This document shows positions 18,946 through 48,362 of a DNA stretch of 48,493 nt, piece by piece. The stretch lies in IMG/VR virus record IMGVR_UViG_3300006736_000009, positions 1 to 48,493 of that record; one strand, given 5' to 3'. Source of the stretch: a virus. Each line of letters begins with the position of its first letter. Positions within the stretch are counted from its first letter, which is position 1. The translations under genes and the position numbers were made by a program. A model generated the notes under the pieces. It saw nothing but the letters and a program-made list of their open reading frames with translations. It made no database searches and was not told where the DNA came from.

Positions 18946-18978
18946 TTATTGTCTGCCGGTGCGTTTTTTCCAACTCAT
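18946..18978 (-). pseudogene. Ten-codon frame with the tag start, out of phase with the ligase
   Basis: A full ribosome site AGGTGATTTAAA precedes ATG 18978, which reads MSWKKRTGRQ and stops at 18948-18946. The first residues match the start peptide of the four genes just upstream. One extra A in the run of six A, or a -1 slip there, would join MSWKK to the ligase frame at THRQTINLGEITMTL. It may be a real leader peptide, a slippage-controlled tag, a decayed N-terminus, or a homopolymer error. Confidence 0.5.
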
Positions 18979-18984
18979 TTTAAA

Positions 18985-19263
18985 TCACCTATTTATCCAT
19001 CCACTAGGACTTTTTGATGAGCGTTCTAATACAGCACCACTATTATCATATTCCTCTTCTGTTAAATAGCCCATTTGATATACTTGCTTTCCAGCAAATT
19101 TATTGTTATGTCTTTCCGCCATTGATTTTGCATCCGCTTCTGTGGTTTGCCAACGCCATGCCGCTTCTTGAGATACAGGTTTTCCACTAGTATTAACAAT
19201 TGTCAGTATCCATTCATTATCGTAATATTTTTTATCTTCTTTAAGTATATCTTTCCAACTCAT
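18985..19263 (-). CDS. Tagged small protein (MSWKDILKE)
   Basis: A 92-residue protein, starting at the fifth codon of the longest open frame so that the tag is N-terminal. After the tag (1-9) comes a mixed region: EWILTIVNTSGKPVSQEAAW, WQTTEADAKSMAERHNNKF and AGKQVYQMGYLTEEEYD. The last part recalls short SHOCT-like or LTEEEY helices. It has no membrane segment or metal site. The start peptide is almost identical to that of the adjacent 91-residue gene, although the bodies differ. The function is unknown. Confidence 0.6.
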   Translation of the reverse strand: MSWKDILKEDKKYYDNEWILTIVNTSGKPVSQEAAWRWQTTEADAKSMAERHNNKFAGKQVYQMGYLTEEEYDNSGAVLERSSKSPSGWINR

Positions 19264-19264
19264 T

Positions 19265-19540
19265 TTAATCATCATCTATGCCTCCATCTTGTTGTTCATA
19301 CCCATAATAATTGTCTAATACACTACTAATTTCACTTTTAATTTTTTCAAGTTTAGGTTGTAGAGTATCTAAATCTTGAAGTTCTTGAATTTTAAAATCT
19401 TTAATTAGATTTTCAAGCCTAGCAAGAGAACTAACAAATAGACCTCTATCAAAATCTCGCTTTCCTGTTTTAATTTCAAATTCCCTTACAATAGGGATAA
19501 ATTTATTTTTTTCATTTTTAACTATATCTTTCCAGTTCAT
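19265..19540 (-). CDS. Tagged small helical protein (MNWKDIVKN)
   Basis: A 91-residue protein with GTGATTTAAA before the ATG. The tag (1-9) is followed by a mostly helical, coiled-coil-like body (SLARLENLIKDFKIQELQ, LEKIKSEISSVLDNYYG) and an acidic end GGIDDD. Its stop lies next to the following gene's start. It probably forms a helical bundle or coiled coil; no known family is recognised. Confidence 0.6.
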   Translation of the reverse strand: MNWKDIVKNEKNKFIPIVREFEIKTGKRDFDRGLFVSSLARLENLIKDFKIQELQDLDTLQPKLEKIKSEISSVLDNYYGYEQQDGGIDDD

Positions 19541-19546
19541 TTTAAA

Positions 19547-19780
19547 TCACTCTTCTTCCTGCTTGTTTTTCAACCATTCTTGGTGTTTAGCTGTTGATCT
19601 AATATGAGTTTTCATAGCTTCTGCTTGTTCATCAGTCACCCCATCGCCATTATAATAATAACGTTTCCCGTCTACAACTAGGCTTGGCTTGTCCTGCCGG
19701 TGCGAGACATACCAAACTGGAGGTAAATGACGAAAGGGCTCTTTTTTTTTATCTACCTTTATTATATTTTCCCAACTCAT
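19547..19780 (-). CDS. Tagged small protein (MSWENIIKV)
   Basis: A 77-residue protein from ATG 19780; an ATG nine bases upstream overlaps the previous gene's stop and would bury the tag. The body has short aromatic strands (PPVWYVSHRQDKPSLVVDGK, then YYYNGDG) followed by a helix (TDEQAEAMKTHIRSTAKHQEWL). The strand part could be a small beta hairpin or SH3-like unit. The function is unknown. Confidence 0.6.
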   Translation of the reverse strand: MSWENIIKVDKKKEPFRHLPPVWYVSHRQDKPSLVVDGKRYYYNGDGVTDEQAEAMKTHIRSTAKHQEWLKNKQEEE

Positions 19781-19781
19781 T

Positions 19782-20030
19782 TTAATCATTCCTATATGGA
19801 TTTTTTCTATTTTTTGATTCTTCTAATTTTTTTCTTGATGCGTCTAATCTAGCAAGTCCAGCATCCATCTCTTCTGCTCGTTTAATATCTTCTTCAATAG
19901 TTGGTGGGGTTTTATCTGGAAACATTTGAGCAAACTCACGCAAAGCATCAGCCATTGATGTTCCTGTTTTTGCCCTATTTAAAACAAAATCTTTAGCAGA
20001 TTCTTCTTTAATAATTTTAAACCAATTCAT
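19782..20030 (-). CDS. Tagged small helical protein (MNWFKIIKE)
   Basis: An 82-residue protein with GTGATTATTA before the ATG. The tag is followed by ESAKDFVLNRAKTGTSMADA and LREFAQMFPDKTPPTIEEDI, a helix-loop-helix pattern, and a basic C-terminal helix (ARLDASRKKLEESKNRKN). The first part could be a small HTH-like unit but is too short to call. It lies in the tagged cluster between portal and ligase. Confidence 0.6.
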   Translation of the reverse strand: MNWFKIIKEESAKDFVLNRAKTGTSMADALREFAQMFPDKTPPTIEEDIKRAEEMDAGLARLDASRKKLEESKNRKNPYRND

Positions 20031-20036
20031 TAATAA

Positions 20037-20714: not shown

Positions 20715-20715
20715 T

Positions 20716-20958
20716 TTATTCACCTGTTATCTTTGCTGCTAAATTATTTAATTGATCCCAATCCATTTTATTAATCATATCACTATCGGGCATTCCCGAT
20801 GTATTTTGATTAACTTTAGGAGCGGGTGTCACTGCCTTTACTAATCCCGTTTTCATAAGCAAATTATCTTTATTATAAACTGTATATTCAAGATTAGTTA
20901 TTTGTTCTTTCATTTTCAATAATATTTCTAATATTTCTTTATTTATTTCATCTGTCAT
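20716..20958 (-). CDS. Small coiled-coil protein
   Basis: An 80-residue protein preceded by AAAGGAGGAATAAAA, one of the strongest ribosome sites in the window. The first 35 residues form a long helix (INKEILEILLKMKEQITNLE), and a helix ends the protein (MDWDQLNNLAAKITGE). That C-terminal MDWDQLNNLA looks like the tag motif placed at the other end, which may be chance. It overlaps no gene and lies between an untagged and a tagged gene. The function is unknown. Confidence 0.5.
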   Translation of the reverse strand: MTDEINKEILEILLKMKEQITNLEYTVYNKDNLLMKTGLVKAVTPAPKVNQNTSGMPDSDMINKMDWDQLNNLAAKITGE

Positions 20959-20960
20959 TT

Positions 20961-22283
20961 TTATTCCTCCTTTTCTTTGGGAGCTCCTAATTCTTCTAAT
21001 TGCCGCCCAAGATTTCTTAATTTCGTATCCCTATTATGTCTTAAACTATCTGATATAACCTTTATTGTTTTTTCACTTATTTCTGGTTTATCTTCTTCAC
21101 CAAATATAATTGCATAAACTTGTTTGCTACTTAAATTATCTGAAATAACATCCCCAAATTCCTTTATATTTTCTATAATTTGATCCTTAAATCTTTCAGC
21201 ATCTCTAACATTAGCTCTTTCAATTGCGCTATCTAAATCAACAACAACATCTCTTTGTTTTTCTTCAATAACATATTGGTCTTTATCATCATCTTTTTTT
21301 CTTCTTAATAAAGAACTAATACCTCTTAAAGGAAAAGCCTCAGTATGAGCTTCTAATAAATATGAATATAATTCTCTATCTCCTATCTTTTGAGATAAAT
21401 TTTCTTTAATTTCCTTTTCTGTTTCTTTAATTAATTCTTCATCAAAATTAACTTTACCTGCTAAAGATTCTCCTTTCATGATTCTAGCTAAAACAGGAAA
21501 TAATTTTTTAGCTTCAACATCTCTAGTCATATATGTTTTATACCTTCTAGTAAATTTAGGTAAAATTCTATTATCTGTAATAAAAGTATTATCATTGATA
21601 ACACTTATTAATTCAGGTAATACCTTTTCATTAAAATCTAATAAGTCTTGTACTTCAAAAGGTAATTTTTCTATAGGTTTCTTTTTTGTTTCCTGCTGCA
21701 ACCTTTCTTTTCTTTTAGCACTTCCTCTTCTTAATTTTGGATCTAAATTCAAATCAATCAAATCATCTGACACAACTCGTGGTTCTATTAAATCTATATA
21801 CACGTCTAACATATGTAAAAATTCTTCAACACCAGCATTAGGTAGAATAACTTTGAAAGCAGCATACATTATACCTCCAGCTCCATCATCATCAAAAGAA
21901 TCAATTGGCCCAGTAGGTATATTAGGTATTTCTTCTTCTTGTAATAAGTCTGTAATAAAATTTGAATTTGGGTTTGGTTCCACATCTCTTAATATGGATT
22001 TATTAAATAATTCTGCCATATCGTTTTTATGAATTAATATTCCGTTACCAAAATTCTTTCCTAAATATCCTAGATCTGGGTGCTTAACTAAATAATGATT
22101 AGGAGTAGGAGCTACTACAGTATTATTTGCTAATGAACGGCCAACTAATGCATATCTTCCATGTCTAGTATCTATTGGTGAAGGCTCTTCTCTTTCTCTT
22201 CTTGCTCTTTCTGGTACTTCATATCCTAACTCTCTTAAACGAGCATCTTCTTTCTCGTCTTTTAGAATAGATTTCCAGTTCAT
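20961..22283 (-). CDS. Tagged helical protein (MNWKSILKD), 440 residues
   Basis: ATG 22283 follows GGTGATTAAA, so the three extra upstream codons are not part of the protein. Behind the tag come a charged helix (RELGYEVPERARREREEP) and a short beta section with HYLVKHPDLGYLGKNFGNG. A long helical body with many Glu/Lys residues follows (FDEELIKETEKEIKENLSQ, DVISDNLSSKQVYAIIFGEE). It is the largest tagged protein of this cluster. There is no metal site, ATP site or membrane span. I recognise no family; an internal virion protein is possible. Confidence 0.55.
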   Translation of the reverse strand: MNWKSILKDEKEDARLRELGYEVPERARREREEPSPIDTRHGRYALVGRSLANNTVVAPTPNHYLVKHPDLGYLGKNFGNGILIHKNDMAELFNKSILRDVEPNPNSNFITDLLQEEEIPNIPTGPIDSFDDDGAGGIMYAAFKVILPNAGVEEFLHMLDVYIDLIEPRVVSDDLIDLNLDPKLRRGSAKRKERLQQETKKKPIEKLPFEVQDLLDFNEKVLPELISVINDNTFITDNRILPKFTRRYKTYMTRDVEAKKLFPVLARIMKGESLAGKVNFDEELIKETEKEIKENLSQKIGDRELYSYLLEAHTEAFPLRGISSLLRRKKDDDKDQYVIEEKQRDVVVDLDSAIERANVRDAERFKDQIIENIKEFGDVISDNLSSKQVYAIIFGEEDKPEISEKTIKVISDSLRHNRDTKLRNLGRQLEELGAPKEKEE

Positions 22284-22292
22284 TTTAATCAC

Positions 22293-22454
22293 CTAAGCTC
22301 TTTTTGCAAGTTCTAAAGCATTAACAGCTCTTCTTAAATGAGGTACTTTATCTGAATTATTATCGGCATCTGTAGCAATTTTTTCATTAATAGCAGAAAT
22401 AATATTTTCAATATCAACATTGACATTTTTCTTTATTTTATTTTCCCAGCTCAT
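22293..22454 (-). CDS. Tagged 53-residue protein (MSWENKIKK)
   Basis: ATG 22454 lies after AAGGTGTTCATT and gives 53 residues to TAG 22295-22293. The start MSWENKIKKN is a variant of the tag with Lys at a position usually Ile or Leu. The rest is a two-helix pattern (VDIENIISAINEKIATDA and HLRRAVNALELAKRA). It fills a gap of about 180 bases between two other tagged genes and is easily missed by length filters. Confidence 0.55.
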   Translation of the reverse strand: MSWENKIKKNVNVDIENIISAINEKIATDADNNSDKVPHLRRAVNALELAKRA

Positions 22455-22464
22455 AATGAACACC

Positions 22465-22737
22465 TTATTCTCTTACTACTGCAATACCTGCTTGTTGAAT
22501 TTTAAATCTAATTTGACCTAAAACTTTTCGTTGATTAGTAGGATCTTTTCTTGCTTCTGCCATTAAACCAATTATATCATCTACTAATTCTCTAAATTGT
22601 CCTGTTGCTCGACCAGCTGTTTGTGTCATAACATCTCTTCTATCAAAACCACTAGGACTTACTGGTTGATTTTCTTCTACATCAGAATCTTGGCCTTCTA
22701 AATCTACAGGCTGTTTTATTATTTTTTTCCATTCCAT
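22465..22737 (-). CDS. Tagged small helical protein (MEWKKIIKQ)
   Basis: A 90-residue protein with AAGGTGATTTAAA before the ATG. After the tag there is an acidic linker, then two helices (GRATGQFRELVDDIIGLMAE and NQRKVLGQIRFKIQQAGIAV). The body resembles in general form the 116-residue gene next to it, which also has a helical region of this size, but no alignment was made. The function is unknown. Confidence 0.6.
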   Translation of the reverse strand: MEWKKIIKQPVDLEGQDSDVEENQPVSPSGFDRRDVMTQTAGRATGQFRELVDDIIGLMAEARKDPTNQRKVLGQIRFKIQQAGIAVVRE

Positions 22738-22748
22738 TTTAAATCACC

Positions 22749-23099
22749 TTATTTATCTTCTTTTGGTCTTAGACCTTTCGCTCTTAATTTAGTAAGCATA
22801 ATACCACCAATCTCTCTTTGCTTACCCACCTCAATATTTCCTTGAATTGCTAATTCAGCTATTTCTAAGAATAAATCTCCATAATGGCCTCTTGTAGTAG
22901 TCATACCATGTAGTTTGCGACTTAGATCTTTAATTCTTTGTGTAGGTTTAATAGAATCTCCTACATCTGTTTCTTCATGTCCTACCAAAGATTGTTTTTC
23001 ATCTCTTGAAATTTCATTTCTTTGCCAAGTTTGTATTTTATTAATTTTGGATTTTTTAATTCTAGCTGCATCTTTTTTATAATCTGGTGTCCAAGTCAT
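22749..23099 (-). CDS. Helical protein with degenerate tag (MTWTPDYKK)
   Basis: AAGGAGGTCTAATT before ATG 23099 decides the start, giving 116 residues. The N-terminus MTWTPDYKKDAARIKKSK keeps Trp at position 3 and a Lys near position 8 but lost the Ile/Leu pair. The body is helical: TQRIKDLSRKLHGM, then GDLFLEIAELAIQG and REIGGIMLTKLRAKGL. It may show a tag that has drifted, or one that can tolerate change. Confidence 0.5.
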   Translation of the reverse strand: MTWTPDYKKDAARIKKSKINKIQTWQRNEISRDEKQSLVGHEETDVGDSIKPTQRIKDLSRKLHGMTTTRGHYGDLFLEIAELAIQGNIEVGKQREIGGIMLTKLRAKGLRPKEDK

Positions 23100-23101
23100 A
23101 A

Positions 23102-23317: not shown

Positions 23318-23319
23318 AT

Positions 23320-23682: not shown

Positions 23683-23683
23683 T

Positions 23684-23797
23684 TTAACCACCCGCTAATG
23701 TGTCGCTTTCACATATAGGACAACCTGTTCCTGTGTATTCATGACCACATTCTTCACATTTTTCCCATTTTAATTTTAATAAATTAAACCAAGTCAT
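23684..23797 (-). CDS. Tagged 37-residue zinc ribbon (MTWFNLLKL)
   Basis: ATG 23797 follows GGTAGGTTAATT and reads 37 codons to TAA. The tag MTWFNLLK is followed directly by a zinc ribbon: CEECGHEYTGTGCPIC, two Cys-x2-Cys pairs ten residues apart. Almost the whole protein is therefore tag plus metal site. It sits beside the portal gene, whose protein also carries zinc ribbons. It would bind zinc and perhaps nucleic acid or protein. Confidence 0.65.
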   Translation of the reverse strand: MTWFNLLKLKWEKCEECGHEYTGTGCPICESDTLAGG

Positions 23798-23799
23798 AA

Positions 23800-25410
23800 T
23801 TAACCTACCTTCTTTTCAGTTCTTCTATCTACATTATTATTTGCAGCCGCTGCTGGTAATCCTGTATGCCTTTTAGGTGGCCCAACAGACATTTTAGCTG
23901 TTGAAGCACCACCACCACTTGAAGCGCCTTCACCTGCCATCATTTGGCCCATTTGACTAGCATCTACATTAGTGCCAGCATAAGGATCACTTTCTATTTT
24001 TTGATCTTTATCTAATTTTGGTTGTGATTCTTCAACATATGCTTTCTTATAAATAAAGTTTCCATCTTCATCCATATCCACATCAAAACCTAAATTTTTA
24101 ATTTGACCAGCAAGATTAACTTCAAGTTCTCTTCTTCTTAGTTGAGCCAATTCATCTTCTTCTTCTGAACGTGGTAATTGTAATTCCCAATCAGTAATAC
24201 CAAATTGTTTTGTAACATAAGGGAACATATATTTATTATAAACATTCTGAGCCATTTCAACAGCCCTATTAGTAACAAGGATTTGCATACCTTCATTATT
24301 TAATCCTCCGCTTGTTGAGGTATCGCTCATAAATATCTTACTTACACCAAAAAATGCAGAAATTCTATCTCTAAGATCATCTTTAACTGCAATATAGTCC
24401 ATTTCTTTTAAAGTGTTCATAAAAGGAACCCACTCAACAGAACCACGATTATTTCCTTCTGTTTCAATACCCATTATCGGTATATAGTGTGGATCTTTTT
24501 CTAATTTTTCTTTTACCCCTTTCCAGTATCTAACAAGAGATTCCATGTTATTTGTTTGTACTGCTAATACCCCTCTTGGTGTACGGCTTTTACTATAACT
24601 TGTATTAATATAATTTTCCATAGCAATAAGGGTTGTTATATTATTCCATAGTGTAAGAATAGGAGGGCTACCATATAATCGTGAAGGGCTATATTTACTA
24701 AAATGTACTACCTCTCCTTCAATATAATATTGATCGACTCCATGTACTTTATTAATATAATGTATTGGTTGAGCTTTACCTCCACATTGATCACATCTTT
24801 CTTCAGATTCATCTGTTATAAAATCTCTACATGAAATACAGGTAAATCTAGTTTGTCCTCTTTCACCGAATTCATCTGTTTCTATAAACATTGTTATAGG
24901 ATCTCCTCTAATGATTTCTTTTACTTTCCACATTACAGTTTCGCCATCACCGTCAATATAATACTCTTTAATAAATATTAAATAAGCATCATCAACTACA
25001 TTTAAATCATCTTCTAATTCCTTTAACACGTCTATAAATAACTGTAGGCCAGAATTAACAGAACCCTCAAAGAAATCTTGTGCATATAATTTTTGTCTTT
25101 TATCAGGTTTTCTTAAATTAGAACTACCGCAAAAACAAGTATCAATTTCCTTTTGATATTCTTCACCACAATCAACACACTTTACAGAAAACTTTTTTGA
25201 CCAAATATATCCTCTTCTAAATATTTCATTTTTTAATTGAACTAAACAAGTTCTAGTAATTGTAGAAAGTTTGGCTATTTGAAATAACATTGGGCCAGCT
25301 AAATATTGAGGATGAGAAGCTTCTTGAATACCCAAATTATATATATCTTTATCTAAAGGTAAAGGCGTCTTACGCTTTAATAAACCTCTAAACATATCTC
25401 TTACTCCCAT
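23800..25410 (-). CDS. Portal protein with two zinc ribbons
   Basis: From ATG 25410 (GGAGATGAATAAT before it) the protein has 536 residues. Features typical of portals include KLSTITRTCLVQLKNEIFRR, the NITTLIAMENYINTSYSKSR helix and FFGVSKIFMSDTSTSGGLN. It is followed in turn by small genes, ligase, protease and capsid. Unusually it has Cys-x2-Cys and Cys-x-Cys at 78-81 and 92-94, and again Cys-x2-Cys at 191-194 and 206-209, two zinc-ribbon-like sites in the outer part. The C-terminus is Gly/Ala/Ser-rich (MGQMMAGEGASSGGGASTAK). The portal forms the DNA-packaging vertex. Confidence 0.85.
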   Translation of the reverse strand: MGVRDMFRGLLKRKTPLPLDKDIYNLGIQEASHPQYLAGPMLFQIAKLSTITRTCLVQLKNEIFRRGYIWSKKFSVKCVDCGEEYQKEIDTCFCGSSNLRKPDKRQKLYAQDFFEGSVNSGLQLFIDVLKELEDDLNVVDDAYLIFIKEYYIDGDGETVMWKVKEIIRGDPITMFIETDEFGERGQTRFTCISCRDFITDESEERCDQCGGKAQPIHYINKVHGVDQYYIEGEVVHFSKYSPSRLYGSPPILTLWNNITTLIAMENYINTSYSKSRTPRGVLAVQTNNMESLVRYWKGVKEKLEKDPHYIPIMGIETEGNNRGSVEWVPFMNTLKEMDYIAVKDDLRDRISAFFGVSKIFMSDTSTSGGLNNEGMQILVTNRAVEMAQNVYNKYMFPYVTKQFGITDWELQLPRSEEEDELAQLRRRELEVNLAGQIKNLGFDVDMDEDGNFIYKKAYVEESQPKLDKDQKIESDPYAGTNVDASQMGQMMAGEGASSGGGASTAKMSVGPPKRHTGLPAAAANNNVDRRTEKKVG

Positions 25411-25411
25411 A

Positions 25412-27097
25412 TTATTCATCTCCTAATATAACCCATTTATTATTTTGATTACCGGAACTAGCAACATAATCTAGTACTTTAAACTTTTTAAGATCTTTTA
25501 ATTGCCTACTAATTAATTGGTGCCAATGACTTCCTATTCTATCTATATCTTTATTTGGGTAATCTCTTTCCCATCTTCTTTGAACTTCATCTCTTATTTC
25601 TTTTATTATAAAAGATTCTTTATTATCACGTTTCCAATTATTTATTATGCTTTCTACATACATTTTAATTTTAATAGAATCAGCAACTTTTATTATTGAA
25701 TCCATTTCATCCATTAAACCTAGTTTACAATTTTTTCTATACTTAGTAATATCATCTAAAGTAATATCATATTTATCTAATTCTTTTGTAGAAGCGGCAT
25801 CTTTCCAATTTTCATATTTTATGATTTTAAATATTTCTTGTATTCTTGGTTTAGCCCAATCTTCTTTCTTAAAATTTCTTTTGATTCTAATACATTCCAT
25901 AACAAGGTCAGCCTGTGGCCCCTTCATTTTTAGGTAGTGTGCCGACTTAGATAAAAGTTCCTCTATATCATTCATACTGTAAAAATTTAATCTATTAGTT
26001 GTTCTATTAGTTTCATTATATCCTGGTTGATCAAGATGTAGCTTACCAACTTTTAGTTCTTTATGCAATTCTTTAACAAAAGCTTTTCCTCTATCACCTG
26101 TGGCAACAATACCTAACCTTGGAGATCCCTTACTATCCATAGTAATAAAACCATCTGAATCTAATACTCCAGCTACATATGAATAAATATCCTTTTTAAT
26201 TTCATCAGAAAATAAGTAATATTTTCTATCAATAATAGTAGCTCCCTTGGATCTTAACATTTTTGAAATCATTTGTGTTGATGTCTGTCTTTTTATTTTA
26301 TTAGATAATAAATTATGTATATCCTTAACATCTTTACCTGGATATTCACAAACTGTTTTGATAACCTCTTCTTTAATTATTTCTTTTTTATCCTTTCTTA
26401 AAGATTGGTGAGCTACATTTTTTACTATACCATTAAAATCTTTTTTATGACCTTTCATCATTAAAGACAAATCTGAATATTTCCTACCATAATCTATAGA
26501 TTTTCTATTAAGATTACATTCCCAATATTCACATAATGAATCTATAAGTTTAGCTCTTGTATGTTCATCTTTAATATTGTCAATTTTTTCTAATTTTCTT
26601 TCTGTTAAACTCATATCTTTTAATGGTTTTTGATAAGATTTTAACCAATAAATACTATCTATAGATTTTTGGATATGTTCTTGATAGCCAGAAATAAGGT
26701 GGTCTATTGTTTTAGATATTTTTAATCTTTGCTTACCTTTAAACTTACGCCTCATATAGCGTAAATCTTTAATAAGTTCTGGTAAAGTTTGTTCTCCTAT
26801 TAAAGGGGAATCTGGGAATACAGGCATGGCCTTTTTAGCATCTGTTAAACTCATTTTAAATTCAGTTGATATATTTTTAATCATATCAAAATCACTTCCT
26901 AATGGTTGATCAAATATCCATGCTGCTAATTTTTCTTCATTAGGTTTGAGTACTTCTATGATTTTATCTCTAGCTTCATTAGTTTCCTCATTTTCTTTCT
27001 CTTCTTCACCTTGTTGATTTTTAAAATTATTCAACGCTGCTTCTAGAGCTGCTTTTGCATCTTCTGCTTTTCTAAAAATTGATTCCAGTAAAAGCAC
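25412..27097 (-). CDS. LAGLIDADG-type homing endonuclease-like protein
   Basis: 561 residues from GTG 27097, overlapping the end of the terminase gene by 26 bases; the true start could be further in. Residues 304-407 form a single LAGLIDADG-like domain: YSYVAGVLDSDGFITM with the acidic D-x-D-G end, then NRLNFYSMNDIEELLSK. Winged-helix-like segments lie at about 240-296 and 480-555. The segment 420-446 (FKIIK, then ENWKDAASTKELDKYDI) matches part of the 1028-residue protein. Such genes often sit beside terminase and portal genes. One motif means it would act as a dimer, if active. Cleavage activity is inferred. Confidence 0.6.
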   Translation of the reverse strand: MLLLESIFRKAEDAKAALEAALNNFKNQQGEEEKENEETNEARDKIIEVLKPNEEKLAAWIFDQPLGSDFDMIKNISTEFKMSLTDAKKAMPVFPDSPLIGEQTLPELIKDLRYMRRKFKGKQRLKISKTIDHLISGYQEHIQKSIDSIYWLKSYQKPLKDMSLTERKLEKIDNIKDEHTRAKLIDSLCEYWECNLNRKSIDYGRKYSDLSLMMKGHKKDFNGIVKNVAHQSLRKDKKEIIKEEVIKTVCEYPGKDVKDIHNLLSNKIKRQTSTQMISKMLRSKGATIIDRKYYLFSDEIKKDIYSYVAGVLDSDGFITMDSKGSPRLGIVATGDRGKAFVKELHKELKVGKLHLDQPGYNETNRTTNRLNFYSMNDIEELLSKSAHYLKMKGPQADLVMECIRIKRNFKKEDWAKPRIQEIFKIIKYENWKDAASTKELDKYDITLDDITKYRKNCKLGLMDEMDSIIKVADSIKIKMYVESIINNWKRDNKESFIIKEIRDEVQRRWERDYPNKDIDRIGSHWHQLISRQLKDLKKFKVLDYVASSGNQNNKWVILGDE

Positions 27098-29428: not shown

Positions 29429-29433
29429 AATAA

Positions 29434-35410: not shown

Positions 35411-35418
35411 ATTATCAC

Positions 35419-38460: not shown

Positions 38461-38462
38461 TA

Positions 38463-39839: not shown

Positions 39840-39843
39840 TAAA

Positions 39844-40053
39844 TCACCCATGCATTATAATTTTATCATATAAATTTTCCATCTTACATATTAAATTTAT
39901 ATCTGTGCTATTATCTATTTCTTTATCTAATGTTTTTAACATTAAATCTTTAACTTGTGGATCTTCTATATCTAATTTATTAATAAAATCAGTTTTATCT
40001 ACATATTTAAATTTATGCGATAAATCCCAAAAGTGTTTTATTATTTCCTTCAT
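39844..40053 (-). CDS. Small helical protein
   Basis: A 69-residue protein (MKEIIKHFWDLSHKFKYVDK onward) with GGGGAGGAGAAG before its ATG, which overlaps the upstream stop (TAATG). It is helical, with a negatively charged middle (DIEDPQVKDLMLKTLDKEID). It is not tagged, though IIK occurs near the start. The function is unknown. Confidence 0.5.
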   Translation of the reverse strand: MKEIIKHFWDLSHKFKYVDKTDFINKLDIEDPQVKDLMLKTLDKEIDNSTDINLICKMENLYDKIIMHG

Positions 40054-41699: not shown

Positions 41700-41754
41700 A
41701 CCACTCACCTCAATATTATATATAACCTATACCTTTATTAATAGTTCGCCTACT

Positions 41755-43305
41755 CTACTGACTTTGCTCAACAAATGGGTGAATTGCATTTCCAGCAAGA
41801 TATTTTTCAGCGCTTTCGTGAGTAATATATTGCGGTACGAAATCTAATTCTGGCTCATAAAATATATCAAAATCTGGAACTTCATCAGTGCTTAAAAAGG
41901 CATCTAAAGTTGATATATTTTTTCTACTAACTTCTTCATTCCTTAAAGATAAAACAATGTTAGCGACTCTATCACCTGTAGGCAATACTTTTCCTTCTAT
42001 TTGAAAGCACATTTTTATATCAACCTTATCCTTATTTAAATCTTCAAATGTTTTACCATCTCTCATTTCTGATTTAGATCTTTTATAAATTTCTAATTTA
42101 GAGAATACCCAGCAATGTGCGAGGTCATCATCATCCCATTGTAGAGGAACCCAATATGTTCTATTACTTATATTCCCTATCACTTTAACTGACGACACAC
42201 CATAAGCATTATGATCTATAGTGGCTTCTGGGATTTCTTCTATTATACTATCCATAAAACCATGCGCTCTTCTTTCTGGTTTTGTTTCTTCCCAATAGTC
42301 TATAATCCAATCTACTACTTCTTGAATTTCTTCATCAATTGAATAATTTAGCGAGCCCATGACGGCATCGCCTATATTAAAAACTTTTTCTTCATAACGC
42401 GCTCTAGTAGATGATGTTCTTATTGTATATTCATTAGTGCCAGATTTATTAATACTCACCCCTATTTTATTTGAAGGATCTTCTGTTGCTATTATTGGTG
42501 CCATAATAAAATCATAACTAAATATAGCATCTCTTATTTGCCTAAGAATATTACTATCTCTGTCAATGTGATTTTTCCATGCTTCTCTATCTACAGTATC
42601 TACAGTATCTGCTTTATTAATATCACTATATTTGCTAACTAAAGTATAAGTCAGGTATCTTATACCCTTTTTTCTTTTTGTATCTTTTGTTACTCTAAAA
42701 GGTATATTATTATTTACTTGTTTTACTTTTATAAATGCCACAAGAGTTCTTCCTAAAACATTAACATTTGGAGTAGAAGTATATTGTGGATAATATAAAG
42801 AGAAGTGTTCTAGTATATCAGACGAAGTGAAAGTATCTCCAATATTTAATTTTTCTAAAAAATTTATAATCATGCGCCTTGTTTTTTTACCTCTAGACGT
42901 CTCGCTTAATTCATGCCAATCGTATTGTATTTTTAATACGGGGTCTCTTCTTACTATAAATACTACTCGTTTTTGCATAGCTCTTTTATGAAGATCCTTG
43001 TGTTTAATAAAAATGTTGCGTATAGTACCAGACATATCTCTAGTCTTAATAGATCTTGCTGATGATATAGCTTGACTTTTAGTTAAACCTTCTTTCATTT
43101 TAATATTTGTTTGTTCAACTACATATTTTTCAATAACTTCTAATATTTTTGGGTCAGGTTCTATATGTTTATTATACCCTTTCTTATTTTGTATTCCAAT
43201 ACTTTCACCATGAGCCAAACTATCTACTTTTTCAAGTAGAAGTCTTTTAAATAAACTAAAATTAACGGGATTATTACCCCGCTTTTTTAAAATATTTTGC
43301 CACAT
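41755..43305 (-). CDS. Tagged winged-HTH protein (MWQNILKKR), 516 residues
   Basis: AGAGGAATAATT precedes the ATG. After the tag there is a helical part. Then a winged HTH at about 144-225 (MIINFLEKLNIGDTFTSSDI, KRKKGIRYLTYTLV) is shared in pattern with two small tagged proteins. The C-terminal half is alpha/beta, with GKVLPTGDRVANIVLSL near 438-454 matching the 548-residue neighbour. DNA binding through the wing is likely; the second half is unknown. The gene ends before the 55-base gap. Confidence 0.6.
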   Translation of the reverse strand: MWQNILKKRGNNPVNFSLFKRLLLEKVDSLAHGESIGIQNKKGYNKHIEPDPKILEVIEKYVVEQTNIKMKEGLTKSQAISSARSIKTRDMSGTIRNIFIKHKDLHKRAMQKRVVFIVRRDPVLKIQYDWHELSETSRGKKTRRMIINFLEKLNIGDTFTSSDILEHFSLYYPQYTSTPNVNVLGRTLVAFIKVKQVNNNIPFRVTKDTKRKKGIRYLTYTLVSKYSDINKADTVDTVDREAWKNHIDRDSNILRQIRDAIFSYDFIMAPIIATEDPSNKIGVSINKSGTNEYTIRTSSTRARYEEKVFNIGDAVMGSLNYSIDEEIQEVVDWIIDYWEETKPERRAHGFMDSIIEEIPEATIDHNAYGVSSVKVIGNISNRTYWVPLQWDDDDLAHCWVFSKLEIYKRSKSEMRDGKTFEDLNKDKVDIKMCFQIEGKVLPTGDRVANIVLSLRNEEVSRKNISTLDAFLSTDEVPDFDIFYEPELDFVPQYITHESAEKYLAGNAIHPFVEQSQ

Positions 43306-43307
43306 AA

Positions 43308-43874
43308 TTATTCCTCTAAAAATCTATTTATCTCGCCAGTTACCCCTTTTGATCTAAAATTTTCATTGCCTATATTACTACCACCATATATAGGGCTAAT
43401 AATATTTATTTCTCGCCCATCACTAAATCTATGAGTCATTACTTCCTTATCTTCTTCTTCTGGCATTATATCTACCTCTTCTAAATACCTTCTCATTATT
43501 TCTCTTTGTCCATCTTCACCGCCGAGTCTATCTAATAATACTTCTTGATGATTTCTATCATATCTTTCCAATTTAGAAGGAAGAAAATTCCGGCTATGTA
43601 AAGTAAAATCGTCTTGTGTTAAATATCTACCTAGATAGTGTTCAAGTAAAGGTATAGAAGGCATATTAACACCTTCACCATCAAAAGTATGTCCTTCATA
43701 ATTTTGTTTTGGTGTGTTTCTATCTATGGCTTGGTTCCAAACCCTATCTTTAATAGTATATGAATCGTATGCGCGTTGTAATGGAAAATCACGATTAATT
43801 CTTTCTAATCTTTCATGTCTTTGAAATTCCATGTAATGAAATCTACCTTGTTTAAGAATACTAAACCAACGCAT
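43308..43874 (-). CDS. Tagged protein (MRWFSILKQ), 188 residues
   Basis: GGTGAATAAA directly before ATG 43874 sets the start; a GTG nine bases upstream lies within that site. After the tag the protein is Arg/Glu/Asp-rich with many aromatic residues (RFHYMEFQRHERLERINRDF, LLEHYLGRYLTQDDF, LDRLGGEDGQREIMRRYLEE). It has no metal site or membrane segment. The function is unknown. Confidence 0.55.
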   Translation of the reverse strand: MRWFSILKQGRFHYMEFQRHERLERINRDFPLQRAYDSYTIKDRVWNQAIDRNTPKQNYEGHTFDGEGVNMPSIPLLEHYLGRYLTQDDFTLHSRNFLPSKLERYDRNHQEVLLDRLGGEDGQREIMRRYLEEVDIMPEEEDKEVMTHRFSDGREINIISPIYGGSNIGNENFRSKGVTGEINRFLEE

Positions 43875-43875
43875 T

Positions 43876-44049
43876 TTATTCACCTAATTCTTTAAGTTGT
43901 TTTTCTTTATCCTTTAGTTCTGATTCTAAATCTTTAATAGTAGATTTATCAACATCAGCCTTTTTAGCATTTTTAATACTTTCTTTAAGATTGAAGATTT
44001 TTTCTTCTAACCATTGTGAAGGGTCTTTAATTATTTTAAACCAACTAAT
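43876..44049 (-). CDS. Tagged 57-residue coiled coil with ATT start (ISWFKIIKD)
   Basis: GAGGTGATTAT lies directly before ATT 44049, which opens a frame reading (M/I)SWFKIIKDPSQWLEEK and ending in TAA 43878-43876. No ATG, GTG or TTG occurs in frame before the tag. The tag at the exact expected distance from the ribosome site argues for a real gene with the rare ATT start. The rest is one charged helix (IKDLESELKDKEKQLKELGE). A single-base change from ATG is the simplest origin. Confidence 0.6.
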   Translation of the reverse strand: MSWFKIIKDPSQWLEEKIFNLKESIKNAKKADVDKSTIKDLESELKDKEKQLKELGE

Positions 44050-44058
44050 ATAATCACC

Positions 44059-44310
44059 TCATGGCCCCTCTTCTTCATCCCATGAAGAGTCACTACTTGT
44101 TTTCTTATAACGGGGTTTTCTCACTTTAGCCTCCCAAGATGCAGGACAATCATTGTTCTTACATTTTTGATATTGGTTTGGATTACTTGGAACAAACATA
44201 TCTCTACCACATTGTTTGCATTTAGCCGGCACTTTCATATCTTCTGAAGCAAACTCTCTTGCAACAGCCCTTTCATACGGACTAACTTTTAATATATTAT
44301 ACCAATTCAT
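44059..44310 (-). CDS. Tagged zinc ribbon protein (MNWYNILKV)
   Basis: An 83-residue protein whose start overlaps the previous stop by four bases. The tag is followed by a short helix (YERAVAREFASEDM), then Cys31-x2-Cys34 and Cys50-x4-Cys55 around QCGRDMFVPSNPNQYQKC, a zinc-ribbon pattern. The C-terminus has basic (VRKPRYKKTSSD) and acidic (DEEEGP) blocks. It would bind zinc and possibly nucleic acid. Confidence 0.65.
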   Translation of the reverse strand: MNWYNILKVSPYERAVAREFASEDMKVPAKCKQCGRDMFVPSNPNQYQKCKNNDCPASWEAKVRKPRYKKTSSDSSWDEEEGP

Positions 44311-44564
44311 ACATTATCACCAAATATCTGATATTGGAGCAATTCTAAATTAGATACAAACGCACCATGAGCATTAATATATCTTGATAAGTATGGCACC
44401 ATATTTGCAAATACTTCTTTAGATAATTGAATATCATCTGTGTCCATAGCTTCATATAATGGATCAGTTAATTTTTGTAAAGTAGTAACTGCATCTATTA
44501 TTTCTTTAAATACTTCTTCAAGTTCTTCTTTACCAGCTTCTTTTAATATTTCTTTCCATTTCAT
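44307..44564 (-). CDS. Tagged small helical protein (MKWKEILKE)
   Basis: An 85-residue, all-helical protein: the tag, then EAGKEELEEVFKEIIDAVTT, LQKLTDPLYEAMDTDD and VPYLSRYINAHGAFVSNLEL. GAGGCAATTAC lies before the ATG. It may form a helical bundle and is acidic in the first half. A nine-codon frame (MTDIKEAIT) lies in the 27 bases before it and ends at this start. No family is recognised. Confidence 0.55.
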   Translation of the reverse strand: MKWKEILKEAGKEELEEVFKEIIDAVTTLQKLTDPLYEAMDTDDIQLSKEVFANMVPYLSRYINAHGAFVSNLELLQYQIFGDNV

Positions 44565-44591
44565 GTAATTGCCTCTTTAATATCAGTCATT

Positions 44592-44957
44592 TTATTCATC
44601 TCCAAAAGTAGTTTCTTTTCTATGTTTATCTTTTTCTTCTTTGTGTATAGCTTGATTAATTAATTTTACTATATGTTCTTTAGCTTTTTCACTAGTAGAA
44701 ATGCCGATTTCATGTCGCCTACTCCATGCTAGTTGTTTTTTATCATACATATTGTCATTATCTACCCACTCATTAAAATCATTAGCAGCTTCTATTAAAT
44801 AAGTAGGATTAATTTGAAATATTTTACTGGATCCTCCTGGGCCCCATTGATGTAGATTTAAACCTCGTAAATATCTAAGAGGAAAACCAGCTTCTAGTAA
44901 TACCATTTTAACACTTCTAGCGTATGCCCTACCTTTAATAATATTAAACCAATTCAT
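44592..44957 (-). CDS. Tagged protein (MNWFNIIKG), 121 residues
   Basis: The start overlaps the previous stop by four bases. The tag is followed by a compact mixed region (RSVKMVLLEAGFPLRYLRG, GPGGSSKIFQINPTYLIEAA) and a helical end (EKAKEHIVKLINQAIHKEEK). The Leu-rich first helix with Gly-Pro-Gly-Gly turns looks folded rather than disordered. The function is unknown. Confidence 0.55.
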   Translation of the reverse strand: MNWFNIIKGRAYARSVKMVLLEAGFPLRYLRGLNLHQWGPGGSSKIFQINPTYLIEAANDFNEWVDNDNMYDKKQLAWSRRHEIGISTSEKAKEHIVKLINQAIHKEEKDKHRKETTFGDE

Positions 44958-45160
44958 TCCTCTTCCTCCTCTATCTCTTTTATCTGACTCTCAAATTTTT
45001 CACGAGTTATATTACCTCGCTTAAGAGCTCCCCATAATCCTTTAAGTTTTTTATCCTTTATTTGATCTTTATTAAGATAAGGTTTTCTTCTTTGACGCCT
45101 ATTCTTTTTACGTGGTTTTCTTCTTTTACCGTATTTGCGCTTAAGTATATTTTGCCACAT
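44954..45160 (-). CDS. Tagged SHOCT-like protein (MWQNILKRK)
   Basis: A 68-residue protein with GGAGAATTAGATAAT before the ATG. The tag is followed by a very basic block (KYGKRRKPRKKNRRQRRKPY) and then KLKGLWGALKRGNITREKFE, which resembles the SHOCT C-terminal helical hairpin (short oligomerisation or anchoring domain). It ends acidic (KEIEEEEE). The basic block suggests nucleic-acid contact. The role is inferred. Confidence 0.55.
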   Translation of the reverse strand: MWQNILKRKYGKRRKPRKKNRRQRRKPYLNKDQIKDKKLKGLWGALKRGNITREKFESQIKEIEEEEE

Positions 45161-45161
45161 A

Positions 45162-45521
45162 TTATCTAATTCTCCTATATACTCTTCTTAACCTTCCTGA
45201 AGGTTTAGGTTTCTCCATTCTATCCACCTTTATCTGATTAAAGCTACCAATCATTGTATTTATTTGTATAGTTGTAGGAGAGGGGGCTTCTATAAATTCA
45301 GGTTCAGTACCACTTCTTGATATAACTTTCATATTATAATCTGTACCTTCTGTACCTTCACTACTTTCATATAACTCTGTTTCTTTTCTTCCCCATTTAA
45401 ATATATCACTGACTGCAAATTCATCTCCGATATTTAAACCATTAATATAATCTTCAATAAGCTTTTTTACAACCTTTTTATATTGAAAAGGCATTTTCTT
45501 TGTAATTATATTAAACCACAT
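45162..45521 (-). CDS. Tagged winged-HTH protein (MWFNIITKK)
   Basis: A 119-residue protein. Helix 1 and the turn YINGLNIGDEFAVSDIF (25-41) match the winged HTH of the 95- and 516-residue tagged proteins. The wing end KPKPSGRLRRVYRRI matches KKPSGRARIYV in the 95-residue one. The start overlaps the upstream stop (TAATG). It probably binds DNA. It carries an 18-base start identical to two neighbouring genes. Confidence 0.6.
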   Translation of the reverse strand: MWFNIITKKMPFQYKKVVKKLIEDYINGLNIGDEFAVSDIFKWGRKETELYESSEGTEGTDYNMKVISRSGTEPEFIEAPSPTTIQINTMIGSFNQIKVDRMEKPKPSGRLRRVYRRIR

Positions 45522-45760
45522 TATTCTTCCTCACATGTATTACATAATTTCGTTTGACCTTTTGGTGGATTTTTTGGGAAAAGTTTATCCATCTTTTTTT
45601 GATGTAATTTTTTATTTTTCTTTCTTTGTGTAATTTCTTTAGATTGTTGTGCAAATTTAGGATTTAATTCTTTTCCTTCCTCTACATTACCTTCTAAATC
45701 TTCTTGGACATTATCCGTAAATAACTTTTTCTGATCTTTTTTAATTATATTAAACCACAT
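45521..45760 (-). CDS. Tagged small basic protein with Cys pair (MWFNIIKKD)
   Basis: A 79-residue protein whose start overlaps the previous stop (TAATG). The tag is followed by Lys/Glu-rich, probably disordered or helical sequence (LEGNVEEGKELNPKFAQQSK, TQRKKNKKLHQKKMDKLFPK), and it ends in TKLCNTCEEE with one Cys-x2-Cys pair. A single pair could bind metal only with a partner. The function is unknown. Confidence 0.55.
   Translation of the reverse strand: MWFNIIKKDQKKLFTDNVQEDLEGNVEEGKELNPKFAQQSKEITQRKKNKKLHQKKMDKLFPKNPPKGQTKLCNTCEEE
45743..45760 (-). repeat. 18-base identical gene start, three copies
   Basis: The minus-strand sequence ATGTGGTTTAATATAATT is identical at the starts of three consecutive genes: 45743-45760, 45504-45521 and 46510-46527. 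Other tagged starts differ mainly at synonymous positions or by one or two residues. The identity suggests recent copying of gene starts, or selection at RNA or DNA level as well as on the peptide. Confidence 0.75.
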
Positions 45761-46527
45761 TAAGCATTCCTCTCTTCTTCTATTGAATAGTATGTTGGTA
45801 ATACTGAGTTCTTACGTTTTCTACTAGCCATTCGTGAATGAAATTTCACCAAATCTTTTTCACCACTTCTTTTATGCCTCTGCAGCATCATTTGATGAAA
45901 TCTTCCTTTATCATCATTAGACATATTTTCATATTCTTCTTTACTTGGCGTTGGTGTTCGCAAAGCATGTCGCCACTCTTCTTTTGATTTAGCATCTTCG
46001 GGGTTATATGGTGATGTATAATTAGGATTATTTCTCATTCTTCCGCGCTCGATCATGTATCTTTTATCTCTTAGGTTCTGAGCCATCCTATGATGATACT
46101 GACTTTTTTCTTCTCTACTAGCGGCATTATATTCTTCTTCTGTCATATCCCATTCTCCATATTGAATATTTCCCATAGGTGTAGTTTGTAATCTTTTTGT
46201 TGGTGGGTTTTTATCTTCTTCTATACTAAAAACCGATTCCATAACATTGTTAACAATCCGTTTCCTTTGAGTTTCATGAAAATTTCTTAACTTTTGTAAA
46301 TCAATTAATTCATTTTGTAAAGTTTCTGGTGCGGCTGCTAAAGGTTGGTGTCTTGCTCTTAATGACTGAAGTTGCCTTTGTAAAGCCGATTTCATTGATA
46401 GATGATAATCATGCTTATCCTTATTATCCATTTCATAATACTGTTCTCTTGTTAAAAACTTCCATTGTTGTTTCTTACCCGATTCTGAAAGGTAGGGGTT
46501 AGGCATTTTAATTATATTAAACCACAT
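45760..46527 (-). CDS. Tagged protein with three internal repeats (MWFNIIKMP)
   Basis: The 255-residue protein has GTGATATT before the ATG. After the tag there are three copies of a roughly 30-residue helical unit, at 22-52, 125-154 and 192-219. Each is of the form T-x-x-E/Q-Y-x-x-x-x-x-x-x-K-x-x-Y/F-H-x-x-M (for example EEYENMSNDDKGRFHQMM). Between them are basic linkers. The gene probably grew by internal duplication. Repeats of this type may bind protein or nucleic acid; no function is known to me. Confidence 0.6.
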   Translation of the reverse strand: MWFNIIKMPNPYLSESGKKQQWKFLTREQYYEMDNKDKHDYHLSMKSALQRQLQSLRARHQPLAAAPETLQNELIDLQKLRNFHETQRKRIVNNVMESVFSIEEDKNPPTKRLQTTPMGNIQYGEWDMTEEEYNAASREEKSQYHHRMAQNLRDKRYMIERGRMRNNPNYTSPYNPEDAKSKEEWRHALRTPTPSKEEYENMSNDDKGRFHQMMLQRHKRSGEKDLVKFHSRMASRKRKNSVLPTYYSIEEERNA

Positions 46528-46531
46528 AATA

Positions 46532-46906
46532 TCACATATTTTCCTTTTGCCAATTAGGACGCCTTAGATATTCCCTATAATTAGTTCCTTGTTCTTCATC
46601 ATCTATTTCTACACTAGGAGTTTCTCGATCAGGCGGCTGCAGACGAGAAGAACTATCTGTCATTTCTCTTTCAATAAAAGCCCAATATCTAGGTTCATTA
46701 GTAGCTGGGTCTATTTCTTGTCTAAATTTAATTGGTATTTGAAAAACAAAATCTGCTGACCAAGAATCTCTATCCTGTTTATTAATAAAAACTATATCAA
46801 GACCTTCATTACGCCAAAATATTTCTCCACCGAAAGCTTCTGCTGCAGTTGCCATCATTTGTAGCTTATTTACTTTTTTCTTTTTAATATTATCAAACCA
46901 CATCAT
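46532..46906 (-). CDS. Tagged protein (M-MWFDNIKKK)
   Basis: AAGGAGTGGTT lies before two adjacent ATG codons (46906 and 46903); the second gives MWFDNIKKKK, the tag with an Asn inserted before Ile. About 124 residues. The body has a short helix (QMMATAAEAFGGEIFWRNEG) and strands (DIVFINKQDRDSWSADFVFQ, RYWAFIEREM), then a polar C-terminal end. The region 15-85 may be a small alpha/beta fold. No family is recognised. Confidence 0.55.
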   Translation of the reverse strand: MMWFDNIKKKKVNKLQMMATAAEAFGGEIFWRNEGLDIVFINKQDRDSWSADFVFQIPIKFRQEIDPATNEPRYWAFIEREMTDSSSRLQPPDRETPSVEIDDEEQGTNYREYLRRPNWQKENM

Positions 46907-46930
46907 AACCACTCCTTAATTTTCTTTAAA

Positions 46931-47218
46931 TCATATACTCTCTTTACCTTTAACATAAATTCTTGCCCTACCACTCGGTTTTTTTACTACCGTAATCCCA
47001 AGCCTGTTTAATAAATGACCTAAAGATTTACCGTCTGGACTATATTCTGTAGAATATTCTTGTTGTTCTGGTTTTTCCCAAAACTGTATTATATCTTTCA
47101 CAGTAAATTCCTCACCGTTAGGTATTTGTTCTAAAAATCTTCTTATTATCTTCTTATTATACCGATATTTTTGTTTTCTAGATATTGGCACACCAATTTT
47201 TATTATATCAAACCACAT
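46931..47218 (-). CDS. Tagged winged-HTH protein (MWFDIIKIG)
   Basis: A 95-residue protein with GGTGAATAATT before the ATG. The tag is followed by a basic stretch and a winged HTH: IIRRFLEQIPNGEEFTVKDI, LGHLLNRLGITVVKKPSGRA and IYVKG. The spacing FLEQ, GEEFT, KDI and the wing K-P-S-G-R match two other tagged proteins (119 and 516 residues). It probably binds DNA and is nearly a minimal tag plus wing-HTH protein. Confidence 0.65.
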   Translation of the reverse strand: MWFDIIKIGVPISRKQKYRYNKKIIRRFLEQIPNGEEFTVKDIIQFWEKPEQQEYSTEYSPDGKSLGHLLNRLGITVVKKPSGRARIYVKGKESI

Positions 47219-47234
47219 AATTATTCACCTAATT

Positions 47235-47813
47235 TTATTCTATTACTACATTCTTAAGTTTCATCGCTGCTTGAATAAATGCTTCAATCTTTTGAGAGTG
47301 TTGTTCTAAATTTACATTATTAACGTCTTGTTCATGAATTTCATTACTATTTTGTTTTTCTGTAAGATGTGTGTTATAAATTTTAACCGCTTCTCTAAGT
47401 TCATTAATCGCATTATCAAAATTTGTATATTTTGTTTCAGACACAATCGTAAATTCCTCCCCATCATAGTCAGTAGTAATATCATCATTAGTTTGAGAAA
47501 GAAAGCTATTCCAATCATTATTATTTCCCTCATCCCTAGAAGTTATTGAGTATAATATTGCTCTTTTTATATTGTTAATTCTACTTAGAACATTACCATA
47601 AAGTTTGCTTATTTCTCGCCAAATCCAATATTGTGCTTCTGAATCTCTTTTACCTTTACCTCGCCACCTTCTTTTATTAGTCTGATGAAAGCGTATAATA
47701 TCAGAAATTTCTTTCTTAACCATCGGATTTAACCATTTCATTAAATCTTCATATGCTTTACCCATTGCGTCATAATCAACATTTTCTTCGTTTTTTAATA
47801 TATCAAACCACAT
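47235..47813 (-). CDS. Tagged helical protein (MWFDILKNE), 192 residues
   Basis: TAGGAGGAAATGAT before the ATG is a strong ribosome site. After the tag the protein is helical (YDAMGKAYEDLMKWLNPMVK, YWIWREISKLYGNVLSRIN), with a short acidic/strand insert (DITTDYDGEEFTIVSE) and a C-terminal helical pair. It may be an all-helical bundle. No motif of known function is seen. Confidence 0.55.
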   Translation of the reverse strand: MWFDILKNEENVDYDAMGKAYEDLMKWLNPMVKKEISDIIRFHQTNKRRWRGKGKRDSEAQYWIWREISKLYGNVLSRINNIKRAILYSITSRDEGNNNDWNSFLSQTNDDITTDYDGEEFTIVSETKYTNFDNAINELREAVKIYNTHLTEKQNSNEIHEQDVNNVNLEQHSQKIEAFIQAAMKLKNVVIE

Positions 47814-47814
47814 A

Positions 47815-47952
47815 TCATTTCCTCCTAGTATTCAACTCATCCATTATTTCATCAATATTTAATTCAAATGCTTCAGCACTATACATGGTTATTTCATATA
47901 TACAATAACAAAGGATTGCTGTTAAACCTAAAAAAGATAACATGATAATCAT
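47815..47952 (-). CDS. 45-residue membrane peptide
   Basis: ATG 47952 overlaps the upstream stop (TAATG) after GGTGGTAA, and 45 codons end in TGA just before the next start. The first 20 residues (MIIMLSFLGLTAILCYCIYE) form one hydrophobic helix; the rest is acidic (FELNIDEIMDELNTRRK). Two Cys in the helix could suggest lipidation or disulfides. It may act on the membrane in lysis, entry or signalling; I cannot say which. Confidence 0.5.
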   Translation of the reverse strand: MIIMLSFLGLTAILCYCIYEITMYSAEAFELNIDEIMDELNTRRK

Positions 47953-48362
47953 TATTTACCACCACTTTGATTTAATCGCCTTTCCCAGTCCTGTGTTAAA
48001 TTAAATAAAGCCGTTAATATATTTAATTCTACATCATGTTCTTCACTAAATTCAGTTCGACCTTTTGTAGAATTTATATTTACATTAGTATCATTACCTC
48101 TTAAGGTATTCATTCTATTTTCATGAATTCGTACTAATTCCATTGTTATATCCCATATCTCTTGTGTTGATTTTTGATCTATCCTTAAATTTAAACTTCT
48201 TTGTTCATGTTCTGTAGCTACCGGATCTTCTGTAATTGCACCTAACTTAGTATAATATTGATCCATTATTTCCATTAGTTCAGTTTCCATTTTATCTCTC
48301 AATGGTTCTTCAAAATCAATAGGATCTGGCACATCTTTCTTTATAACTTTAAACCAGCCCAT
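47952..48362 (-). CDS. Tagged helical protein (MGWFKVIKK), 136 residues
   Basis: ATG 48362 places the tag at the N-terminus; an ATG two codons upstream (MK-MGWFK) overlaps the previous stop and is also possible. The rest is acidic helices (LRDKMETELMEIMDQYYTKL, EIWDITMELVRIHENRMNTL, LNILTALFNLTQDWERRL) with a polar linker. It is the first tagged gene of the right cluster seen in the window. The function is unknown. Confidence 0.5.
   Translation of the reverse strand: MGWFKVIKKDVPDPIDFEEPLRDKMETELMEIMDQYYTKLGAITEDPVATEHEQRSLNLRIDQKSTQEIWDITMELVRIHENRMNTLRGNDTNVNINSTKGRTEFSEEHDVELNILTALFNLTQDWERRLNQSGGK

Follow-up and report, generated by a model that had tools for sequence, protein, structure and literature searches.

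Virus record IMGVR_UViG_3300006736_000009 of IMG/VR, analysed here from position 1 to position 48,493 (48,493 nucleotides; hereafter the window), harbours two clusters of otherwise different genes that begin with one and the same short peptide, M-x-W-x-[DNE]-I-[LI]-K, which we refer to as the tag. In each of eight large relatives 10–25 genes, all on a single strand, carry such a tag, and the peptide resembles the tail end of the capsid scaffold, so that it is probably a loading ticket into the virus particle. Here, we report the distribution of the tag and its resemblance to scaffold C-termini and propose, as the probable explanation, that it is an N-terminal capsid-loading signal of magroviruses (Magrovirales, an order of viruses infecting marine Poseidoniales archaea; PMC10768690) which imitates the last helix of the scaffold and marks cargo for delivery to the next host.

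The tag among related viruses and its resemblance to the C-termini of scaffold-type proteins

Across the window and eight near-complete relatives (nine genomes with 1029 genes), 159 tagged genes were counted against 0.22 expected from the internal frequency of W..hhK, and in 80 relative loci fetched by terminase similarity all 201 tags with an ATG start were found on the coding strand, with none opposite; the shared start peptide first noticed in the window is real and far above chance. All relatives compared were metagenome-derived. In the eight large relatives every tag was located on the strand of the capsid genes (the late strand), and among 161 tag-bearing loci with 783 tags no locus had tags on both strands. 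About 28% of late-strand open reading frames (ORFs) of at least 60 amino acids (aa) were tagged.

No variant with F or Y in place of the tag tryptophan occurs. The third codon positions of the tag vary freely, with I, L and V being swapped through different codons, and conservation ends sharply after K8, the following residues not being conserved; selection therefore acts on the peptide. A normal Shine-Dalgarno signal of the GGTGAT type is found upstream of the tagged starts. Fused and duplicated genes provide natural experiments in this regard. In relative G001 (L089:3832-9600) there is an array of single-domain paralogues, each consisting of a tag and a NIQISxQ[KR]TSS domain, and a four-domain protein of 806 aa in the same genome has the tag at its N-terminus only, with W and hydrophobic pair gone from its three internal domains. 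Two genes with separate tags in G002 and G009 have become fused in G004 and G014, and the fused gene has retained the N-terminal tag in slightly altered form (NWEDIIQ) while the internal tag has eroded. Since tags are lost once they become internal, by tandem repeat or by fusion, the tag acts once per polypeptide and lies outside the fold of the body. A few proteins in the nine genomes keep intact internal copies. Strict W, free third codon positions, a sharp end at K8 and erasure once internal together give good support to the original prediction of an N-terminal docking tag. The NIQIS array of G001 is also of interest in itself as a rapidly expanding family of putative cargo.

The bodies behind the tag are highly diverse. 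In the nine genomes the tagged proteins formed 111 sequence clusters, of which 88 had a single member, in agreement with the earlier claim that the bodies are unrelated and that common descent of whole genes is no explanation. Recognisable bodies include a DUF5754 group, PAP2 phosphatases and pentapeptide repeats, and for most tagged bodies no family was found in PHROGs or Pfam. In relative G013 (L120:4712-6855) three adjoining tagged genes encode a tRNA-ligase-type phosphodiesterase, an RNA-repair-type HAD phosphatase and a CCA-adding/poly(A) polymerase. The three suggest a kit for tRNA repair that would be delivered; that such a trio is injected as protection against host tRNA cleavage is speculation. 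Terminase, major capsid protein, protease-scaffold and conserved tail proteins were never tagged in any of the nine genomes. Untagged versions of the bodies in relatives, which the original prediction regarded as contrary evidence, do exist; several are fusions or have shifted starts, and the rest are sporadic losses, as a portable tag would lead one to expect.

A scan of 84,980 cellular genomes for use of the tag returned 41 scattered matches, mostly out of frame, with no clusters and no match in Poseidoniales, and this absence of clustered use makes a viral partner more likely than a host-encoded one. A GC-rich version of the tag had no match in IMG/VR, and there were zero start tags in 48 kb of HCTV-1, a distant relative within the Druskaviridae, and likewise in the stretches of T4 that were read. 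In the window, position 4 of the tag is biased towards F or W (11 of 19; permutation P 0.0004) and position 7 towards I (P 0.015). A genome-specific dialect of this kind would hint at a virus-encoded partner, but the bias is only suggestive, because nothing significant was found at the other positions and paralogues confound the comparison.

A counterpart of the tag is located at the C-termini of two scaffold-type proteins, both encoded on the minus strand of the window. One is a small scaffold-like protein of 80 aa (20716–20958; C-terminal KMDWDQLNNL) with representatives in 9/9 genomes, from a family of small coiled-coil proteins of 75–100 aa encoded between portal and protease, and the other is a prohead serine protease (Peptidase_S78; 15070–16362) fused to a scaffold-type domain with the tag-like C-terminus LSWADLEDLRKEMGY. 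When a profile of tag positions 1–6 was applied to 235,486 internal sequence windows, 17 of the best 22 were C-termini of these two protein families. Given W, positions 4–6 alone, with M1 unused, ranked scaffold tails well above other W windows (Mann-Whitney P 4e-10; 18 homologous windows). In most contigs a model of the small protein produced a second, shorter match (E about 1e-3 to 1e-7), which overlaps the C-terminus of the protease, and judged by this similarity the two families share a C-terminal domain.

The scaffold tail motif can be written MxWx[DE]I, with KMDW and MDWSDIHKMV as its commonest forms. Its W was present in 60 of 61 and in 29 of 31 unique tails, and among 21 proteases W418 was invariant and M416 nearly invariant. 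Tags and both tail sets agree at M1, W3, the acidic position 5 and I6, and when the frequent tail MDWSDIHK is held against the tag MSWEDILK, M, W, D, I and K agree. In the AlphaFold2 model of the small protein (predicted local distance difference test, pLDDT, 73), a long helix at the N-terminus is followed by a loop and then by a C-terminal helix-turn-helix, with the W at the beginning of its last helix. The model of the protease fusion (pLDDT 62) has the protease domain first, then a disordered region and long helices, and likewise ends in such a helix-turn-helix, with the motif again at the beginning of the last helix. A search of the PDB with the small scaffold model gave no fold match.

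The association between tag and scaffold tail was also found in contigs selected without regard to scaffold. Among the matches listed, 20 contigs had been selected solely by the tag DNA pattern; 19 of these 20 encoded both scaffold-type proteins, and the remaining one may be a fragment. All 40 further tails from these contigs had the W motif, one contig holding two copies of each protein. In contig IMGVR_UViG_3300021958_000021 (L185/G027; 184,733 bases) both scaffold-type genes occur in two copies about 91 kb apart, and this contig probably results from misassembly or from the joining of two related genomes. Covariation of tag and scaffold was considered for L263, in which the small scaffold has F for W, and was ruled out there, as its tags keep W.

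Proposed capsid loading and rival explanations

We infer that the tag takes a helical form and docks on a partner, and that its carriers are packaged into the virion and delivered. The peptide would form a short amphipathic helix and mimic the last helix in the helix-turn-helix of the scaffold. During procapsid assembly, tagged late proteins would dock at the site of the scaffold tail, for which the inner face of the major capsid protein (13728–15056, minus strand) is the likeliest place; this protein is itself untagged and is the candidate docking surface. On scaffold exit and DNA packaging they would remain in the head, and they would finally enter the next host along with the genome. The original prediction also proposed a loading signal for internal virion proteins, arguing from gene position alone; loading is now supported by the scaffold-tail match, by the confinement of tagged genes to the late strand and by the absence of the tag from replication proteins and the main structural proteins. 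That some tagged bodies are enzymes worth delivering, such as the three adjoining RNA-repair genes, likewise counts in favour. The chances are about even that the tag is part of a general delivery system, in which any late protein with a copy of the eight-residue docking helix is loaded and injected and a fast-changing set of 10–25 effectors per virus reaches the archaeal host. This set would span RNA repair enzymes, phosphatases, DNA-binding proteins and unknown proteins.

Several observations weigh against capsid loading by scaffold mimicry. The match is imperfect at position 7, where tags have L or I and scaffold tails H, D or N, and of the scaffold tails only about a fifth to a quarter have K8. 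Few independent events enter into the ranking statistics, the tails being homologous, and the Mann-Whitney figure overstates the independent evidence because its 18 scaffold windows are homologous. The scaffold models are of low to medium confidence, and the scaffold-type identity of both proteins derives from gene order, protease fusion and predicted shape. The tryptophan could serve the scaffold's own fold and not a docking face. No T4-like conserved protease site is apparent after the tag.

The tag could also bind the scaffold itself and not the shell, either by replacing the last helix of the helix-turn-helix or by joining the oligomer, and cargo would still be loaded. The tag does resemble helix 2 of the predicted helix-turn-helix, and the internal proteins of T4 enter the scaffold core via their targeting sequence (PMC3012670, PMC5694885), but a shared motif most simply means a shared partner, and we consider scaffold binding rather unlikely. 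That the tag addresses proteins to a replication compartment, a membrane or another place inside infected cells is less probable still: an amphipathic helix of W, I and L could bind membranes and several tagged bodies are enzymes and not typical virion proteins, yet the replication genes are untagged and on the opposite strand, the matches in cellular genomes are scattered as by chance, with neither clusters nor Poseidoniales among them, and the resemblance to scaffold tails would be left unexplained.

Two further explanations seem very improbable. If the shared start served translation or expression, or marked a recombination junction, with the peptide as a by-product, the GGTGAT-type Shine-Dalgarno region common to tagged genes would be accounted for, and short shared starts could indeed seed gene shuffling. 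However, neither free third codon positions nor the interchange of I, L and V via different codons is in keeping with such a role, untagged neighbours share the same operons, internalised copies decay, and two scaffold-type proteins have the matching motif conserved at their C-terminal ends, where there is no start codon. Descent of all tagged genes from one ancestral gene, with bodies diverged past recognition, finds some likeness in a few paralogue families such as the NIQIS repeat family of G001. It is opposed by the unrelated folds involved (CCA-adding enzyme, HAD phosphatase, tRNA-ligase-type phosphodiesterase, PAP2 and pentapeptide repeat), by the sharp end of conservation at residue 8 and by the excess of singletons (88/111 clusters).

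Tagged and untagged genes of the window

The gene set of the window lies on the minus strand, and terminase, portal, S78 prohead protease, major capsid protein and tail proteins were recognised with Pfam and PHROGs. Deposited phage relatives of the major capsid protein are haloarchaeal Druskaviridae and one methanogen virus. IMG/VR relatives of the window reach 86–96 kb, and in G001 PolB, an RFC-like clamp loader, a ligase and a nuclease are encoded on the strand opposite the capsid genes. The window fits a magrovirus-type contig of an archaeal tailed virus, matched to the Magrovirales by their published description, with replication and virion modules on opposite strands, PolB, an HK97-type capsid with protease and a distant relation to Druskaviridae. 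To our knowledge, the marine archaeal hosts of magroviruses have no cultured representative.

With ORFs called by our own script, which prefers a tag start where one exists, the strict start M-(x)-W-x-x-[ILVMF]-[ILVMF]-K was found on 20 minus-strand ORFs of the window, 7 in 19.0–23.8 kb and 13 in 40.0–48.4 kb, and degenerate starts on five more; the plus strand had zero matches to a tag start. The total of about 25 is close to the 24 genes and two degenerate forms of the original prediction, of which one quoted start, MSWKKRTGR, was not found in the window. The layout in two clusters also holds, but the strict members of the second begin at 40.05 kb and not at 38.4 kb as had been stated.

The first cluster, like all ORFs described below on the minus strand, opens with four small tagged genes, MSWKDILKE (18985–19263, 92 aa), MNWKDIVKN (19265–19540, 91 aa), MSWENIIKV (19547–19780, 77 aa) and MNWFKIIKE (19782–20030, 82 aa), the last of which has a homologue in G001 that is tagged too. 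These are followed by MNWKSILKD (20961–22283, 440 aa), MEWKKIIKQ (22465–22737, 90 aa) and MTWFNLLKL (23684–23797), a protein of 37 aa whose four cysteines are arranged much as in a zinc ribbon. Degenerate starts are found here in MSWENKIKK (22293–22454, 53 aa) and MTWTPDYKK (22749–23099, 116 aa), and a third, MDLFNIIKL with L in place of W (37534–38460, 308 aa), lies ahead of the second cluster.

The second cluster includes MWWTVLKES (40053–41699, 548 aa) and MWQNILKKR (41755–43305, 516 aa), followed by MRWFSILKQ (43308–43874, 188 aa), whose homologue in G001 is also tagged. Next to it, ISWFKIIKD (43876–44049, 57 aa) has an ATT start at 44049 after GGTGAT. ATT is the sole sensible start for this ORF and was also seen in G013 near 3.6 kb (GWEIILKQ); as the conserved tag fixes the start codon, ATT starts are probably used by the virus of the window. 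The series continues with MNWYNILKV (44059–44310, 83 aa), which gave a weak zinc-finger match, MKWKEILKE (44307–44564, 85 aa), MNWFNIIKG (44592–44957, 121 aa), the very basic MWQNILKRK (44954–45160, 68 aa), MWFNIIKKD (45521–45760, 79 aa), MWFNIIKMP (45760–46527, 255 aa), MWFDIIKIG (46931–47218, 95 aa), MWFDILKNE (47235–47813, 192 aa) and MGWFKVIKK (47952–48362, 136 aa). Its degenerate members are MWFNIITKK (45162–45521, 119 aa) and MMWFDNIKK (46532–46906, 124 aa).

Tag-like sequences also occur within untagged proteins. A protein of 1028 aa (32324–35410) has the internal copies KSWWTILKQ and then VDWQDIIEN, and the protein at 9458–9988 has AWWNIIKL near residue 30; these are possibly internal docking motifs. 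Portal protein (23800–25419) and terminase large subunit (27072–28499) are both untagged. The protein encoded between them (25412–27097) is kept in 9/9 genomes and in the window has a LAGLIDADG-like stretch (YVAGVLDSDGFITMD), while a Pfam scan of this protein gave no match. The head module further encodes a large DNA ligase (16343–18928), present in 9/9 genomes, and G001 has a second ligase on its replication strand. The start of the head-module ligase (MTLTPFIKAN) had been considered as a tag and was dropped, and the gene is counted as untagged because its homologues show no W tag. This ligase may be virion-associated and loaded via a different route.

Comparison with known loading systems

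The internal proteins of phage T4, an otherwise diverse counter-defence set, have a common N-terminal capsid targeting sequence (PMC3012670). Reading of the T4 starts gave MKTYQEFIAEA for IPII/III, MKTFKEFT for IPI and MLKEQLIAEA for the scaffold gp22. As in magroviruses, about ten N-terminal residues are common to otherwise different proteins (IPI, IPII, IPIII and Alt), and the analogy with T4 drawn by the original prediction fits in that a short N-terminal peptide is carried by diverse proteins. The two signals share only an aromatic-x-x-hydrophobic pattern, the T4 sequence having no W, and there is no sequence homology. The magrovirus tag further differs in its absolute W, in having no apparent conserved cleavage site behind it, in the 10–25 cargo genes per genome and in belonging to an archaeal virus. 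While the start of T4 gp22 resembles the T4 cargo tag, the magrovirus tag resembles the C-terminus of the scaffold; a cargo tag resembling a scaffold end may thus also hold in T4, or this may simply reflect a shared protease site. The analogy with encapsulin cargo peptides, also drawn earlier, fits less well because those peptides load an encapsulin shell and are usually C-terminal, whereas the tag is N-terminal and the genome has a tailed-virus capsid, portal, terminase and protease.

In phage P1 the large antirestriction protein DarB is directed to the head by an N-terminal segment, which does the same for a reporter (PMC9024508), and a similar role has been proposed for propeptides of the giant phage SPN3US (PMC5694885). 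The DarB signal has 30 residues and belongs to one protein, in contrast to the short motif on many genes in magroviruses. The tag would resemble the signals of T4, P1 DarB and SPN3US in logic, and not evidently by homology.

The C-terminal helix-turn-helix of the P22 scaffold gp8 binds coat protein, and cargo fused to truncated scaffold becomes enclosed (PMC12005531, PMC9962691). The magrovirus scaffold-type proteins are predicted to share the P22 layout of a helix, a flexible region and a C-terminal helix-turn-helix. Loading in P22 is man-made and employs a whole scaffold domain, whereas for magroviruses we propose a natural N-terminal imitation of eight residues. The herpesvirus UL26/UL26.5 gene layout provides a protease-scaffold fusion and a separate scaffold with a common C-terminus, as in magroviruses, and we know of no herpesvirus cargo tag that imitates the scaffold tail. 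The 25 C-terminal residues of the herpesvirus scaffold are needed for capsid assembly, as cited in PMC12005531.

In the literature searched, no earlier description of the peptide, or of capsid targeting in archaeal viruses, was found. Capsid targeting by short N-terminal peptides has been described for only a few proteins from a small number of bacterial phages, while in these widespread marine archaeal viruses there appears to be a family-wide tagging rule. The tag would point to a concrete docking interface, the tail helix of the scaffold, and suggests a minimal loading signal, and through the scaffold match one can ask more generally how capsid targeting sequences function. If the proposal is true, the internal cargo of virions would be readable directly from metagenomes, and with the tag as a mark of cargo a role could be assigned to hundreds of unknown genes.

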